Source: a virus. Taken from it: 22,597 nucleotides of DNA. Shown piece after piece: positions 4,247 through 11,306 of the stretch. Location: positions 1 to 22,597 of IMG/VR virus record IMGVR_UViG_3300035180_000242; one strand, 5' to 3'. Every line of letters begins with the position of its first letter. Position 1 is the stretch's first letter. The translations under genes and the position numbers were made by a program. The notes under the pieces are model-generated. The model searched no databases. It saw nothing but the letters and a program-made list of their open reading frames with translations, and was not told the DNA's origin.

Positions 4247-4324
4247 TTAATCAAATATAGCTACTGCCACCGCTAATGTTATCGCTACTACCATTACTAA
4301 TAATATCAATGTTGTTGCTACCAT
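4247..4324 (-). CDS. Hydrophobic micro-protein, 25 aa, overlapping polymerase 3' end
   Basis: A 25-codon frame encodes MVATTLILLVMVVAITLAVA plus VAIFD, almost entirely hydrophobic and long enough for one membrane span. GGAGAG is 4 nt before the ATG. It lies in the +1 frame relative to the polymerase and overlaps its last 24 codons. There the polymerase reading is low-complexity Asn/Ser/Gly, as if shaped by the other frame. It is followed immediately by a second hydrophobic micro-gene. The protein is too short to assign. Its translation is inferred from ribosome site, hydrophobicity and synteny. Confidence 0.5.
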   Translation of the reverse strand: MVATTLILLVMVVAITLAVAVAIFD

Positions 4325-7300
4325 TTGTCTCTCCTACGCTGTTAAAATCATATTTCTCCATGTGCCCAAAATCACCCCCTATTTCAATATCTACGGGGAA
4401 CTTAAACGGCACATCTAAACCAAACCTCTCTTTAAATATCTTTGGCACATCTTCTATCGTGTCTTTGAGCCACTTTAGACATGGCTTCAGAACATCTTCC
4501 CTAACATACAACCATTTTGAATCGTGTATCTCGTTAATCATTTTTATTCTATCCCCCTTGCCTAGCAGGGCCTTTAATAATGCTGTGGTGCTGCATGCCT
4601 GAACATCTGACGCAGTCCCCTGCATTGGGAAGTTCTTAGGCTGTGTAAAGCTAAAGCTCTCACTCACATTACCGTGAAAACTTCTCCCAGAATTAAGGAA
4701 GTGATACTTCTTACCTGTAGGGGATACATAATACCCAACCCTACGTTTATACTGCTCATTATATACTATCTCCTCAGATTTGTCAAATATCGGCAGTAAT
4801 TCTATGCCATTACTAATTCTAGCCCCATCCTTACCTCTTTTCTGGCTAGCTGGTATATTGCTCGCCAGACTTAAATGCATGTTATGTTCTAGCCCCTCTC
4901 TAACACTCACCCCAAAGTTAGCTGCATCAGCATATGTTTCTTTTTCTTTTTCGAATATCTTCTCAACAATACCTATATCTAGCCCTGTACTTTCCGCCAC
5001 TTTCTTAGGCATGGCTCCATAGGCCATCTGGTACGAGACAGTTTTAGCATATGTACGTTGCTTGTTCCAATATTCATCGCCATCTATCTTGCACAATTTA
5101 TAGAGCTCGTCATAGGTCTTGTCTTCGTTATAATAGCCAAGTCGTACAACATGCAAATCTGTACCATCTAGTAAATGCTGTGTTAAGAGTTTATCCCCTG
5201 AGAGCATTGCCAACACCCAGATTTCTAGTTGTGCGAAGTCGATCTGTACACACTTCCACCCCGGAGGGGCTACAAACAAGCTATGTAAATCCTTCCCGAA
5301 CTGATTACGCTTACTAACATTCTGTAAGTTAGGGTTGGAGCTGCTTAGCCTCCCCGTAGCCGTTAAGGTGTTGTTAAAGTTTGGGTGCAATACACCGCCT
5401 ACGCTTCTATCAATAAACGCTTGACAGTATGTCTTTGCAGCCTTCTTGTACATCATTGATTGCTTTTGATACTCGCAGTACTGTTTAAGCTTAGGGTTTG
5501 TCGTTTTAGCGGCAATCTTTTGCATTGTCCCATCATCAGTGCAGTACAGACCAAGCTTTTTACTTGCACTAGATATGCTTGCAGGAACTCGAAACCCTGA
5601 TATGTGTACAAGCTTTTCAACGTTTTTGTATTTATCTTTGCCGTTTTTGTATTGTCCAATGCATTCCCTCTCTACAATTTTAATATCCCCGCCAAACAGT
5701 ATCGCACTCTTATGGTCGGGGCTGTTAATATTAAACTCTGGTAGTCTTGGGTCAGTCCAAAACTCCTTAACGACATTCTGAGCCATTTCTAAATACTCTA
5801 AATGCTTTAGATTAAACTCTTGTAGAGTTTTCTCGCATCTCTTAATGTCAACTTGTATACCAGTCACTTCCATATTTATCAAAGCTAGCAGATAGTCATT
5901 ATACAGCTCGATGATGGGCATCATACCTTCTTTTTCTGCCCTCACTTTCTGTAACTCATAAATCTTGAGTGGCGTAGAGCCATCAGTGTGGCAGTAATAC
6001 TCGTATAAAGCAAACATACGCTTACATCTATCTCTAGCAGCCACTATCTTATCAGCACCTACACCTTTCTTATACAAAGCGCTAATACGGCTAGGCTTCT
6101 CTACTTCATTAAGATACTTAAGCTGAAGCTCAGCAAGAGAGCTAAACGCATGTTGCTGGCCTGTAAGTAGGTATTCTGCAACTTGACAATTGCCTGTCAC
6201 CTGTACCTGACCACCATGCCTAATAACAATCATAGAACTAGGGACAGTTACGCAGTAGACGCGTCCGTTGTAATCAACCTCGGATTTTGTCATGCTATTC
6301 TGCACGCAGTAATCTTTATTAACTATGGATACACGCTTATCATTTAGTAAGGCTCGTCTCCCGGCTAAAGAGGCTATTATTTGCACTTTTTCTAAAGATT
6401 CTGATCTATACGAATAATATTCAATAGTGTCTTGGGACGTTTTATGCCCATCCCAATACTGCAGCTCCTCTATAAACACTAACTTTTGATGTAAAGTCAT
6501 CAATACTGGGTCTATATTACCAAATACCTTAACATCTTCGATTAGTTTCTCAGCTCCTAATAACCGCGCCCTGTAGGTACTACCGGATGTGTTAGTACCC
6601 CCCCTAAGTTCCAATCCAGCCTCGTAGGCAAGGTCCTTTAGCCTATCAACTTTACGCTGCTTACTAAACTCAAACTGCACATAACCTTGTTTAGTTATAT
6701 AGGCATCTGCTTGTATTGCTACAATCAACCGAAGCTCTGTATCCGTAAAATCAAGACCACTACCATCATGCAAACCTGCTAGTAATGCTTTATGGTGACT
6801 GAATAGACTTGTCTTTGAGTTAGCAGGTTCAAGCCTTAGTTTGCCGTACTTAAACGTCCGAACAACACGATGATGGTCTGGGGTTGATAGATGGTTTATG
6901 TGACGTCCATTACTTAAGCTTAGTAACTTACCATTATAGGGCTTGTCTATATAAGCCACAGGTCGTACAAAAGTAATAGAGCCATCTGTATTATACTGGG
7001 CTACTTCTAAACCCCTTTCTAGATTATCAAATCTCTGCCATCCTTTGGATGTAAGGATCTCTGTCCCCCCCGTAAAGCAATCCCAAATCTTCCCACCACC
7101 CAACAGAAACTCACGTAATTGTTCGTCATGCCATATATATGACAAGTCAAATCCTATATTGTGTCCTATGATTAAATCGACGCCACGAAGCCAATTACGA
7201 GACCCACATAGTTTACGCTTGAATCCCTGCTTATTATGTAACACTTTAACATTGTCTACACTTAGCCCTATGATTTGGGTATATATATCATTCTCAGGCC

Positions 7301-7367
7301 CACGAAAGGTCGGACCGTGTATAGATGTAGATATACTAGACTCAAAATCTAATGATATTACGTTCAT
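4251..7367 (-). CDS. polA: Family A DNA polymerase with 3'-5' exonuclease domain, intein-containing precursor
   Basis: The replicative DNA polymerase, 1038 codons; removal of the intein (residues 97-393) would leave 741 residues. The proofreading domain has Exo I D7/E9, Exo II N70 and D74 (GHNIGFD), and Exo III Y458/D462, all intact. The polymerase domain has TATGRLSSSNPNLQN at about 670-683, motif A with D710 and E715, motif B R771/K775/Y779/Y783, and motif C IHDS with D949. There is no 5' nuclease domain. Y779 aligns with Phe762 of E. coli Pol I and Tyr526 of T7 polymerase. Motif C has Ser950 where many relatives have Glu. The last 30 residues are low-complexity and overlap a micro-ORF. The ATG overlaps the helicase stop by ATGA. 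Confidence 0.97.
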   Translation of the reverse strand: MNVISLDFESSISTSIHGPTFRGPENDIYTQIIGLSVDNVKVLHNKQGFKRKLCGSRNWLRGVDLIIGHNIGFDLSYIWHDEQLREFLLGGGKIWDCFTGGTEILTSKGWQRFDNLERGLEVAQYNTDGSITFVRPVAYIDKPYNGKLLSLSNGRHINHLSTPDHHRVVRTFKYGKLRLEPANSKTSLFSHHKALLAGLHDGSGLDFTDTELRLIVAIQADAYITKQGYVQFEFSKQRKVDRLKDLAYEAGLELRGGTNTSGSTYRARLLGAEKLIEDVKVFGNIDPVLMTLHQKLVFIEELQYWDGHKTSQDTIEYYSYRSESLEKVQIIASLAGRRALLNDKRVSIVNKDYCVQNSMTKSEVDYNGRVYCVTVPSSMIVIRHGGQVQVTGNCQVAEYLLTGQQHAFSSLAELQLKYLNEVEKPSRISALYKKGVGADKIVAARDRCKRMFALYEYYCHTDGSTPLKIYELQKVRAEKEGMMPIIELYNDYLLALINMEVTGIQVDIKRCEKTLQEFNLKHLEYLEMAQNVVKEFWTDPRLPEFNINSPDHKSAILFGGDIKIVERECIGQYKNGKDKYKNVEKLVHISGFRVPASISSASKKLGLYCTDDGTMQKIAAKTTNPKLKQYCEYQKQSMMYKKAAKTYCQAFIDRSVGGVLHPNFNNTLTATGRLSSSNPNLQNVSKRNQFGKDLHSLFVAPPGWKCVQIDFAQLEIWVLAMLSGDKLLTQHLLDGTDLHVVRLGYYNEDKTYDELYKLCKIDGDEYWNKQRTYAKTVSYQMAYGAMPKKVAESTGLDIGIVEKIFEKEKETYADAANFGVSVREGLEHNMHLSLASNIPASQKRGKDGARISNGIELLPIFDKSEEIVYNEQYKRRVGYYVSPTGKKYHFLNSGRSFHGNVSESFSFTQPKNFPMQGTASDVQACSTTALLKALLGKGDRIKMINEIHDSKWLYVREDVLKPCLKWLKDTIEDVPKIFKERFGLDVPFKFPVDIEIGGDFGHMEKYDFNSVGETNGSNNIDIISNGSSDNISGGSSYI
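6189..7079 (-). other. Intein with LAGLIDADG-like homing endonuclease domain, inserted in the polymerase exonuclease domain
   Basis: A 297-residue in-frame insertion splits the extein sequence KIWD from CQVAEYLLTGQ. Block A begins at Cys97 (CFTGGTEILT). Block B is TPDHHRV with T162 and H165. The C-terminal blocks read NGRVYCVTVPSS and VQVTGN, ending at Asn393, with Cys394 as the +1 nucleophile. The usual penultimate His is Gly392. The middle region carries two degenerate LAGLIDADG-type motifs, LIVAIQADA (D221) and FIEELQYWDG (D306), which keep the acidic residue. All catalytic splicing residues are present except the penultimate His, a substitution that some inteins tolerate. The polymerase needs splicing to bring the Exo II and Exo III residues together. 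Confidence 0.95.
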
Positions 7368-8629
7368 AATAATTCCCGGTATAGGCTGAACTGCTCGTTA
7401 AGTGTGCATGTTGTAGATACATGTGAGCCACGTTTCTTTTTAGTTGTACTAACATAACGCACGCCCGGCATATCATCATCCATGCCTATCATAATCATGC
7501 AGTATGCCGCCCCCTGCTTACCACTCTTACTGTTAGCTAAATCTTTATCCTTCAAATGCTTGCGATGCTTAAACTCACCTGTATTCTTATCTTGATAACT
7601 TGTATTACCTGTTTGACTAGTTCCTAGTATAGGATAGCCATCATTTGCAATACCGCGCACATCTTGGTACAGCTTAGTTAAATCAATAATAGCATCGCTG
7701 GCAGATAATTTATCTAACATATCTACAATTATAATAGACGGATTGTATTTGTCAATCTTTTTACGTATTTTAAATAAATCTGCATTGCTACGTATCTGCA
7801 TGCCAATAAACAGCTCTGGATCGTACGTTTTTGCGTAGTGCTTACTCACCTTATCCCAATCCGCTACTATCTGCTCAAAGCCGCCATGCACTTTGTCTTT
7901 ATACAAATTAGACAGGAACCGGCCCGCTAAGTCTTCTTTAGTATCTTCAGACGTACAATACAATATCGGCCTGTCTATTTTAGCTTTGTGAAGATGCTCA
8001 AATACGTGCACTGCTTGCGAGATACAAAACGCACTCTTGCCGGCGTTGCTATCAGCAGCCACAACAATAAACTGACCAGCCATGTGACTCCCAAGGCTAG
8101 ATTGGAGGGATGGAAGGAACCAACTAAGGCCATTGCTGCTATCCAGTACAGATAAATCGAGAGTATCAATTTTAAAAATGTCATTGTCATCCTTATTAAT
8201 GTACTGTGACTTCTTATCATCTAGCTCTTTAAGTATAATGCCAATCTTCGCCTGGTCAAACCCCTCGGCTATCACTTGCTCTATAGCGTCAGTGGCTTGT
8301 CGTTCTAATAAGTTAATGTAGACGTTAGGGCCTACCTCAGCATTCTCTATCAACGGAAACACAGTCTCTCTATAGTACTGCAGGTCTTCCCCTATCTCAT
8401 CCCTACGATGCCACACTGATGAGAAGTCAGAATAAAACGTATTAAAATCAATATCCTTATGCTCTGGATACTTATCATAGTACTTCTTGTAATCGTCTAA
8501 TAAGTTCTTAGTTATGGGTATTAGACGCTTTAGGTCTAGGCATAGGCTGAACTGGTCATAATTATAACGACTAGTCATACTCTTTAGCAATGCAGTCTCA
8601 AGCTCTATATCATCTTTTTTAATTGTCAT
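7364..8629 (-). CDS. DnaB-like replicative DNA helicase
   Basis: A 421-residue RecA-fold helicase that would unwind the template ahead of the polymerase. The first 150 residues are helical, corresponding to the DnaB N-terminal and linker region. The ATPase core has Walker A ADSNAGKSA at about 192-200, then YCTSEDTKEDLAGR with E228 in the position of the DnaB catalytic Glu. Walker B, SIIIVDMLD, has D303. A conserved Gln/Thr segment GTSQTGN is at 336-342, and KKKRG near the C-terminus could supply the arginine finger. It lacks a fused primase; that activity is encoded two genes upstream. GAGG lies 7 nt before ATG 8629. The stop overlaps the polymerase start. Confidence 0.92.
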   Translation of the reverse strand: MTIKKDDIELETALLKSMTSRYNYDQFSLCLDLKRLIPITKNLLDDYKKYYDKYPEHKDIDFNTFYSDFSSVWHRRDEIGEDLQYYRETVFPLIENAEVGPNVYINLLERQATDAIEQVIAEGFDQAKIGIILKELDDKKSQYINKDDNDIFKIDTLDLSVLDSSNGLSWFLPSLQSSLGSHMAGQFIVVAADSNAGKSAFCISQAVHVFEHLHKAKIDRPILYCTSEDTKEDLAGRFLSNLYKDKVHGGFEQIVADWDKVSKHYAKTYDPELFIGMQIRSNADLFKIRKKIDKYNPSIIIVDMLDKLSASDAIIDLTKLYQDVRGIANDGYPILGTSQTGNTSYQDKNTGEFKHRKHLKDKDLANSKSGKQGAAYCMIMIGMDDDMPGVRYVSTTKKKRGSHVSTTCTLNEQFSLYRELL

Positions 8630-9758: not shown

Positions 9759-10524
9759 GATGTGCTCCTATTGTCTCTTTTAATTCGCTTGGGCTATAGG
9801 CCTTTGGGTCTTGCTCTGCTATAATGTTCTTAATAATTTTAGCGTCCAATTGTCCAAACCCGTATCGTCTATTTGTATAGTGTAGTATAGAATTGAGAGA
9901 ATTGCAAATCTTTTTTGCAGATTCTTGCCCAGAATTAGTTTGTTTTGTATAATCATTGTCTAGCCAAACTAGAATATTATCATATTGCTTAAACCAAAGC
10001 TTTAAATATTCGTAGCTCACTTTAGTACCCCAAAGGCATACACTGTGTACATGTTCAGCTAAGCGTATGGCGCTTATAAAGTCTTCTACTATCACTAGTA
10101 TTCGTGATTCGCGAATTGCGAATAGTGCCGGTACTTTAACCCCCGACGATACTATAAGCCTGGGCTCTGTATTCCAACGGGTCTGATAGCATACAAGCTC
10201 ACCATCTTTGTAATATGGGAGTATAAGCCCACGATTTCCAGTTTCCAAAATGGAATATTTCTTAATCAGTGCCGCATCGACATAATATTTAGCCAGCCAT
10301 TTTAAATTAACTATTGAGAATTTAGACGGGTCTGAACAAGCCTCAGGGAAATCCTTAACTCTATGAACCGCGCTATTTGATACTGTAAAACTATGATCGT
10401 AGAATATAGTGTAGTTACATGAGAAACAATGAGCTCCATTCTCATACGTACAAAATGGTTTGCCTTTATGCTGCAACCCACAGCTAGGGCAGTTGACACT
10501 AGACGTTAAGAATGTCACAGCCAA
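9739..10524 (-). CDS. DNA primase, zinc ribbon plus TOPRIM domain
   Basis: A 261-residue primase resembling the primase half of T7 gp4. An N-terminal zinc ribbon has C12-x2-C15 and C33-x2-C36, with an extra C25. The TOPRIM fold follows, with VIVEDFISAIRLAE (E147) and the metal-binding pair D189-x-D191 in ILVWLDNDY. No helicase domain is fused; the DnaB-like helicase is separate downstream. The initiation codon is TTG at 10524. GAGG at 10535-10532 is 7 nt upstream, no in-frame ATG precedes the zinc ribbon, and a GTG at 10518 would be poorly spaced. It overlaps the preceding gene by 10 nt. Confidence 0.92.
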   Translation of the reverse strand: MAVTFLTSSVNCPSCGLQHKGKPFCTYENGAHCFSCNYTIFYDHSFTVSNSAVHRVKDFPEACSDPSKFSIVNLKWLAKYYVDAALIKKYSILETGNRGLILPYYKDGELVCYQTRWNTEPRLIVSSGVKVPALFAIRESRILVIVEDFISAIRLAEHVHSVCLWGTKVSYEYLKLWFKQYDNILVWLDNDYTKQTNSGQESAKKICNSLNSILHYTNRRYGFGQLDAKIIKNIIAEQDPKAYSPSELKETIGAHHATPAK

Positions 10525-10856
10525 TCACCATCCTCTAACAGCTCTTCATACGTTTTGTACGAAATATAGTTTGTGTAGTCTTTAGCATTATTAACAATAG
10601 CGTCTAAAATCTCTGATGGAACTATACACTCATTCTTATGTTTTATATATGTATTACCAGCAAAATACTCTGCGGCATCAGCCTTCTGAGCATCATCACC
10701 ATAATGTAAATCATGTACAGCAGCTAATATAATAGCATATCTAAGACGTATATCACCAACCACTAGGTTTATCTCGTAGTCTGCCTTCTCATCTAAGTAT
10801 TTACATAGTGCTACATAGACAGTGTCTAACTTATACCTGAATTTTCTTTTTTCCAT
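10515..10856 (-). CDS. Hypothetical protein, 113 aa, first gene of the replication operon
   Basis: A 113-residue, mildly acidic, helical protein with no motif I can name. It begins MEKRKFRYKLDTVYVALCKYL and ends in an acidic, Tyr-rich stretch ending DGDWL. It is the first gene after the structured leader and directly precedes the primase, whose start it overlaps. AAGGG lies upstream of ATG 10856. As the promoter-proximal gene it may be an early regulatory or replication-initiation factor, but that is inference from position only. Confidence 0.75.
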   Translation of the reverse strand: MEKRKFRYKLDTVYVALCKYLDEKADYEINLVVGDIRLRYAIILAAVHDLHYGDDAQKADAAEYFAGNTYIKHKNECIVPSEILDAIVNNAKDYTNYISYKTYEELLEDGDWL

Positions 10857-10951
10857 TGTATTCCCTTAAGTTGCCTTGATACTATAAGCTTATACTTGTT
10901 TACATTACATTGCAAGTAATATTGTAATTATTTTTATTATTTGCTTATTTT

Positions 10952-11174
10952 AGGCAATAGAGGTCACTAGATACCTTTAGTTGACCCTTAAGCATCTTCC
11001 GGCATTCTATGTCATCCCTCAAGCAAATTATTCGGAACACATTGAGGCTAGTTAAACCTCTTTCCCTTATCGCTGTCAGTGTCTTAAGCGAGTATGTTAC
11101 GTCAACATAAACCCGTTTTCCATAGCCCTCTACGAGGCGTCTATTGCCCCGGTATCAAAGGGCATGCTTAAGAG
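10952..11174 (-). ncRNA. Structured leftward leader RNA with predicted pseudoknot
   Basis: This 450-nt stretch between divergent operons holds no convincing gene. Read leftward it contains two long-range helices: 11174-11164 with 10995-10985 (11 bp, one U-G) and 11149-11140 with 10961-10952 (10 bp, one G-U). Their strand order makes them cross, which is an H-type pseudoknot topology. Both extend through G-U pairs only in the leftward direction, which argues for a leftward RNA. Local hairpins lie between the long arms: 11137-11127 (CCTC-GTA-GAGG), 11109-11093 (6 bp), 11091-11070 (5 bp) and 11060-11044. It would form most of the 5' leader of the replication mRNA. No known RNA family is recognised. 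It could also be an origin region. Confidence 0.5.
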
Positions 11175-11188
11175 ATGGCTGTTACCGA

Positions 11189-11216
11189 TTGTTATTTATA
11201 CACGTTGAGGTATACT
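11189..11216 (+). promoter_or_regulatory. Candidate upstream rightward promoter
   Basis: TTGTTA at 11189-11194 and TATACT at 11211-11216 are 16 nt apart. It would fire rightward, upstream of the stronger promoter. Its -10 belongs to a series of TATACT copies at 11211, 11245 and 11277. It is a weaker candidate, supported by sequence only. Confidence 0.35.
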
Positions 11217-11240
11217 AGCAAATCATTCGTGTGAGACACC

Positions 11241-11269
11241 AGTATATACTATGTTGACAAACAAAGCAA
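11241..11269 (-). promoter_or_regulatory. Leftward sigma70-type promoter for the replication operon
   Basis: On the minus strand, TTGCTT (11269-11264) and TATACT (11246-11241) are separated by 17 nt, a good sigma70 match. Transcription would start near 11234, giving a leader of about 380 nt before the first replication gene. It overlaps the rightward promoter, so the two should compete for polymerase. A weaker alternative further downstream is TTTGCT (11222-11217) with TATAAA (11200-11195). Confidence 0.55.
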
Positions 11270-11282
11270 ATTAGTGTATACT
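11254..11282 (+). promoter_or_regulatory. Strong rightward sigma70 promoter for the lysis operon
   Basis: TTGACA at 11254-11259, a 17-nt spacer and TATACT at 11277-11282 are near consensus. Start near 11289 would leave an 18-nt leader before ATG 11307. The -10 sits inside the near-palindrome TTAGTGTATACTAA (11271-11284), which is a plausible operator. Confidence 0.85.
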
Positions 11283-11306
11283 AAAGCATGTCAGAGAGGA
11301 GAGCAT

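Follow-up and report, generated by a model that had tools for sequence, protein, structure and literature searches.

A conserved structured RNA element heading unrelated operons in environmental phages, a candidate operon leader

The locus and copies of the element

This study concerned an intergenic locus in a 22,597-base virus record (IMGVR_UViG_3300035180_000242, positions 1 to 22,597), the whole of which is referred to here as the window. A sequence-only reading of this DNA had described the locus as free of genes, and positions 10857-11306 were indeed a divergent intergenic stretch without genes, flanked by a 113-aa gene running leftward and, on the other side, a 73-aa gene and a lysozyme gene running rightward. 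The leftward operon comprises, in order, the 113-aa gene and genes for a primase, an AAA protein, a DnaB-like helicase, DNA polymerase A, an exonuclease, and PhoH. The DNA polymerase A gene (window 4251-7367) appears to bear an intein, inserted between CFTGGTEIL... and ...VTGNC, and PHROG matches over this putative intein were to PhoH-like and ribonucleotide reductase families. A conserved RNA element occupies much of the gene-free stretch and is separated from the next gene by about 90 nt of A/T-rich DNA (Table 1).

A leftward promoter with an untranslated leader of 380 nt had been proposed for this locus. A promoter-like site is present, with an estimated transcription start at ~11234 and an implied leader of ~378 nt, but it matches the consensus only partially (Table 1). 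In four copies of the element the match is 11-12/12 (TTGACA, 16-17 nt spacing, TATAAT or TATACT); promoters were scored against the sigma70 consensus. The distance from the -10 box to the conserved CACG that opens the element is 8-16 nt in 7/7 copies. The proposal of a leftward structured leader starting near 11234 is supported. A strong rightward promoter (TTGACA-17-TATACT, 11/12) at window 11254-11282 overlaps the -35 region of the leader promoter.

Protein searches with the window primase and AAA genes recovered L002 (a near-identical twin of the window), L003, L004, L005, L022, and the L010 contig. The window leader matched L004 and L005 over 55 nt at 85% identity, and pattern scans with this core added L010, L012, then L024 (from the same record as L022), and then L029. 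Seven homologous copies of 276-350 nt were identified in six distinct environmental phages, besides the copy in the twin, and six independent copies were used for statistics. Phage G002 carries two diverged copies (L012 and L029), which head two different operons. A covariance model (R1) built from the core recovered exactly the known copies, at 68.8-83.9 bits, with the next best at 13.4 bits; high scores for the copies from which R1 was made are to be expected, and the informative part is the gap to the rest of the records. Looser viral scans also produced false matches falling inside genes (L011, L013-L017), which were rejected.

The earlier statement that no known family is recognised holds against Rfam 15: neither the window nor its relatives gave a match at gathering thresholds, and at E values up to 5 or 1 there were only unrelated, chance-level matches or none. 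The Rfam models of GOLLD, ROOL, and OLE did not match the element, and ARAGORN detected no tRNA or tmRNA in the window. Identity as a group I intron, ribozyme, or tmRNA was rejected, since neither Rfam nor ARAGORN supported it. No relative turned up among 50,697 phage records when the window region, the elements of L005 and L012, and a 56-nt core served as nucleotide queries. Nothing similar to the L005 element was found in plasmids, and 84,980 bacterial and archaeal genomes gave nothing in two pattern scans; the viral and genome scans used exact patterns, which would miss distant relatives. The element is apparently an RNA family that has not been described so far.

Table 1. Features of the RNA element and its surroundings, in window coordinates
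Feature	Position	Strand	Remarks
First gene of leftward operon	10515..10856	-	113 aa; no family found
Whole conserved RNA element	10945..11232	-	287 nt from CACG to 3' motif, plus one 5' base; homologous copies L004, L005, L010, L012, L024, L029
Sigma70-type leader promoter	11241..11269	-	TTGCTT-17-TATACT; 8/12 consensus match
5' conserved block	11178..11232	-	CACGAATGATTTGCTAGTATACCTCAACGTGTATAAATAACAATCGGTAACAGC; ungapped alignment of seven copies, 33/59 columns invariant
P1 hairpin	11200..11232	-	stem (A)CACG 11232-11228 / CGTG(T) 11204-11200; conserved 23-nt loop
Tentative P3, 5' strand	11185..11188	-	UCGG, with CCGA 11035-11032 just before P2 3' strand; from window/L010 consensus fold
P2, 5' strand	11165..11177	-	CAUCUCUUAAGCA; 13 bp with 11025-11013
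P2, 3' strand	11013..11025	-	UGCUUGAGGGAUG; pairs with 11177-11165
Pk, 5' strand	11151..11156	-	GAUACC, in loop of hairpin GCCCU 11163-11159 / GGGGC 11150-11146; pairs with GGUAUC 10975-10970
Pk, 3' strand	10970..10975	-	GGUAUC, in loop of 3' hairpin; crosses P2
10-bp helix of the earlier reading	10952..11149	-	GGGCAATAGA/TCTATTGCCT, 11149-11140 / 10961-10952; present in window
Local hairpin	11070..11091	-	UCGCU/AGCGA; L010 GCGCC/GGCGU, two compensatory pairs
Local hairpin	11044..11060	-	GAGG/CCUC; L010 GCAG/CUGC, two compensatory pairs
3' hairpin	10961..10987	-	GGGUCA 10987-10982 / UGACCU 10966-10961; carries Pk 3' strand; one-sided change in L010
3' motif	10945..10960	-	CUAUUGCCUAAAAUAA; identical or two changes in L024, L004, L005; shorter form in L029

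Fold of the element

The folding energy of the window element was only mildly unusual (z of -1.8 on the RNA strand and -0.6 on the opposite strand), and values across the copies, from -0.35 to -2.66, were unremarkable, so the case for a structure rests on comparison. Every copy opens with an ungapped conserved block of ~54 nt, CACGAATG...AACGTGTNTAAANAAYAAT, containing the P1 hairpin. The P1 stem is invariant in the seven copies except for its closing pair (G-T in L012), so that its pairing is predicted rather than demonstrated by covariation. A conserved leader peptide beginning at the ATG in CACGAATG was rejected, the frames ranging by eye from ~3 to 24 codons among the copies.

The block is followed by P2, a long-range helix that begins 54-60 nt into the element in all copies and spans 7-13 bp. 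Its position is the same in 7/7 copies while its letters are unrelated, as many as five kinds of pair occurring at one position: the window helix has 13 bp with two G-U pairs, and the strands elsewhere are UAUCUUACAC/GUGUAAGAUA in L010, CUUGAAUAUCAGC/GCUGGUAUUCAAG in L012, CUCCUACCAUAGC/GCUGUGGUAGGAG in L029, CACAAGC/GCUUGUG in both L004 and L005, and UAAGUGGGCA/UGCUUAUUUA in L024. Shuffling gave p = 0.001, 0.001, 0.001, 0.004, 0.018, and 0.031 for the six independent copies, values that are optimistic in that the position ranges were picked after seeing the data, though all six agree. When partners were permuted among copies, the observed sum was reached by the true assignment only (1/720), indicating that the strands prefer their own partners. 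The G-U pairs of P2 occur on one strand only. The conserved block has also been considered as a DNA operator, an inverted repeat (ACACG...CGTGT) just after +1 with the remainder folding by chance, in keeping with a P1 stem that hardly varies and whose pairing is unproven. Such a reading is most improbable, as the 23-nt spacer is conserved too, and was already disfavoured by a P2 that forms in every copy, from unrelated letters, with its G-U pairs confined to one strand.

The helix Pk crosses P2 and would complete a pseudoknot, which is supported by the comparison, if less strongly than P2. At the aligned position L012 pairs as GAGACGG/CCGUCUC, and AGAGGGG/CCCCUCU is among the other Pk pairings. 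Own-partner pairing was reached by 2/720 permutations, the minimum possible given that the window and L010 are identical there; p values for single copies were 0.02-0.22, and the scan of L029 preferred another helix. A pseudoknot had been claimed from two crossing helices of 11 and 10 bp; in the comparison the crossing pair is P2 and Pk rather than one involving the 11-bp helix. That helix exists in the window (CTCTTAAGCAT/ATGCTTAAGGG, 11174-11164/10995-10985) and does cross the 10-bp one; it shares its 5' strand with P2, in which that strand has a better partner, giving 13 bp. The 11-bp helix was rejected as a conserved pairing, having no equivalent in L010, the nearest homologue, or in other copies. 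A switch between P2 and the 11-bp helix is conceivable, and L012 likewise offers an alternative partner for the P2 5' strand, but at a different position. The 10-bp helix is weakly supported as a conserved feature: its 3' strand is conserved, the position of its partner varies among relatives, and p was 0.015 in the window, 0.020 in L024, and 0.1-0.9 in the others. The observation that G-U pairs lengthen both helices only when read leftward was confirmed, each reaching its full 11 or 10 bp with one G-U pair on the minus strand, against 9 bp for both on the plus strand.

Several local hairpins of the window show compensatory or one-sided changes relative to L010 (Table 1), and the consensus fold of these two copies contains eight compensatory pairs in nested hairpins and more in P2, so that the compensatory changes expected of relatives were found both there and, for P2, across the seven copies. 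Equivalents of the 3' hairpin are visible by eye in L012 and L005. The tentative P3 would also cross P2, and in other copies 3-4 bp are possible by eye, with G-U changes. The element is almost certainly a real structured RNA. At the level of sequence, comparison among the copies establishes the predicted fold (P2 firmly, Pk less firmly), its strand, promoter-like sites at a nearly constant distance, and use before unrelated first genes.

Boundaries and genetic context

The ends of the element show in a comparison of L004 and L005, which are identical at 345/350 positions of the element (98.6%) but at only 60/88 (68%) of the adjacent upstream promoter stretch and 481/624 (77%) of the Mom gene that follows. 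Three genes close by differ at 29-38% of third codon positions. The edges of the identity are sharp and coincide with +1 and the 3' motif. The simple reading of this pattern would be purifying selection. Recombination is a caveat because the helicase genes of these two (6884-8152 in both L004 and L005) are 100% identical. Neighbouring genes differ by ~15%, and the helicase identity may mark a recent recombination tract or shared stretch. The near-identity over the full length suggests that the entire fold matters, beyond what a short polymerase contact would need.

In 6/7 copies the 3' end of the element is followed within ~10-20 nt by a ribosome-binding site and ATG, and in most relatives the 3' motif precedes the ribosome-binding site by a few bases. 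This arrangement would suit a translational, riboswitch-like switch, in which the conserved block would recognise a ligand or protein, while access to the nearby ribosome-binding site would be governed by the 3' hairpin, Pk, and 3' motif. Leaders that bind ligands or proteins typically combine a sizeable conserved block with helices that vary, and a tentative helix in L029 (CTGGGCAA/TTGCCTGG) reaches into the ribosome-binding site. We consider such a switch unlikely, however: the downstream genes have no common function, the start codon in the window lies ~90 nt from the motif, and the helix using the motif is inconsistently placed.

The first genes behind the element are unrelated, encoding the 113-aa protein in the window, Mom in L004 and L005, an N6/N4 methylase in L012, an HNH protein in L029, and proteins of 75-82 aa in L010 and L024, which argues against control of one gene. 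In two phage lineages, DNA-modification genes lie directly behind the element (L004:3383-3994, Mom family; L012:6712-7440, N6/N4 methylase), maybe by coincidence. Of the two G002 copies, one precedes an operon of methylase, TerS, and TerL genes, the other an HNH-lysozyme-AAA operon. Another region of G002, on the minus strand between the genes for lysozyme and AAA (L038:5808-6074), has a consensus promoter (TTGACA-17-TATACT), ~240 nt of structured sequence (z -2.9), and a strong intrinsic terminator, which mark out a candidate small RNA gene of its own; no Rfam family matched it above the gathering score.

This diversity did not bear out the earlier tie to the replication operon, as the G002 copies head other operons, and L003 has a replication operon in which an R1 scan found no copy of the element. 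The AAA protein of L003 is the closest to that of the window (79%). At the position of the element, the intergenic region of L003 (L003:4255-4644) is A/T-rich and bears promoter-like sites, pointing to loss or replacement of the RNA. For the same two reasons a replication origin, or its primer RNA, which had been among the options raised, is very unlikely. The divergent intergenic position at the head of a replication operon, the adjoining A/T-rich DNA, and a sign change in GC skew at ~11 kb would fit an origin, but the skew goes with the strand of the genes, the operon behind one G002 copy serves packaging, and the A/T-rich part is missing from L010 and L012.

Proposed function and comparison with known phage RNAs

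The element probably controls expression of the genes behind it. A cis function at the level of the whole operon is fairly likely, given the unrelated first genes and the two diverged copies at two operon heads in one phage, and seven copies with one fold on one strand are in its favour. As a whole, the best explanation at present is a tentative one, that of a structured operon-head leader acting on the polymerase in cis. A pseudoknotted RNA of ~290-350 nt, made by the host sigma70 RNA polymerase, would form the extreme 5' end of the operon transcript, fold on emerging at +1, and most likely modify the elongating RNA polymerase. The 5' conserved block may be the polymerase contact surface, with P2 and Pk holding the shape, and the outcome would be antitermination or anti-pausing, as with HK022 put RNA. 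Antitermination specifically is a possibility put forward with some doubt. Against this, a search of the leftward operon of the window turned up no convincing intrinsic terminator downstream, and so no sign there that antitermination would be needed; put RNAs are far simpler in build, and the nearest relative, L003, manages without the element.

Such a leader has to be weighed against a noncoding RNA acting in trans. Its own strong promoter would drive its synthesis, cleavage within the A/U-rich 3' motif (UUGCCUAAAAUAA) would free it from the operon transcript, and it might then serve, for instance, as a decoy for a protein or the polymerase, or as an RNA scaffold, as has been suggested for GOLLD and ROOL. 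The strong promoter with a 5' end at +1, the constraint over the whole length in L004 and L005, the conserved, A/U-rich 3' edge, the variable context of an element that is optional (absent from L003), and the ~90 nt of A/T-rich DNA before the next gene in the window are all consistent with this. On balance a separate RNA seems rather unlikely: the element has no terminator of its own (no T run follows it), its 3' end adjoins a ribosome-binding site in most copies, an arrangement for which a separate RNA would have no use, it is always on the same strand as the following operon, and both copies in one phage are at operon heads.

HK022-type put RNA suppresses termination via the zinc-binding domain of the polymerase beta' subunit. 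In HK022 the RNA is ~70 nt long with two stem-loops, and putL and putR stand at the heads of two operons (PMC9378689). This is the closest working analogue of the element, which would likewise be a non-coding phage RNA at the start of operon transcripts. G002 has two copies at the heads of two operons, as HK022 does, and one copy was found in each of the other records, most of which are fragments. The element differs in its length (276-350 nt), its crossing long-range helices, and its sequence. The lambda nut sites, RNA elements early in phage operon transcripts that act in antitermination and need the N protein, are alike in position but much smaller, and any boxA/boxB likeness of the element appears superficial. 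The T4 gene 32 leader has a pseudoknot upstream of the ribosome-binding site and controls one cognate gene, as other autoregulatory leaders do, whereas the genes behind the element are unrelated. To our knowledge, few phage RNAs of this size have a comparatively supported pseudoknot, and the best known, GOLLD and ROOL, are without known function. GOLLD, ROOL, and OLE are likewise large and structured; phages carry two of them, and their folds include pseudoknots and kissing loops (PMC12286853). They are longer than the element (many GOLLD exceed 800 nt) and often lie near tRNA islands, while the window is without a tRNA.

It is conceivable, if somewhat speculative, that the element represents a new class of large RNA, built on a pseudoknotted core and placed at +1 of unrelated operons, that would either reprogram the host polymerase for the operon by itself or be freed to work as an RNA machine of its own. 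With ends that are clearly marked, a promoter of its own, and a known gene context, the family lends itself to tests with small reporters of action in cis or in trans, and on antitermination or translation. If antitermination proves true, the element would be a second protein-free phage antiterminator beside put, and one structurally unrelated to it.
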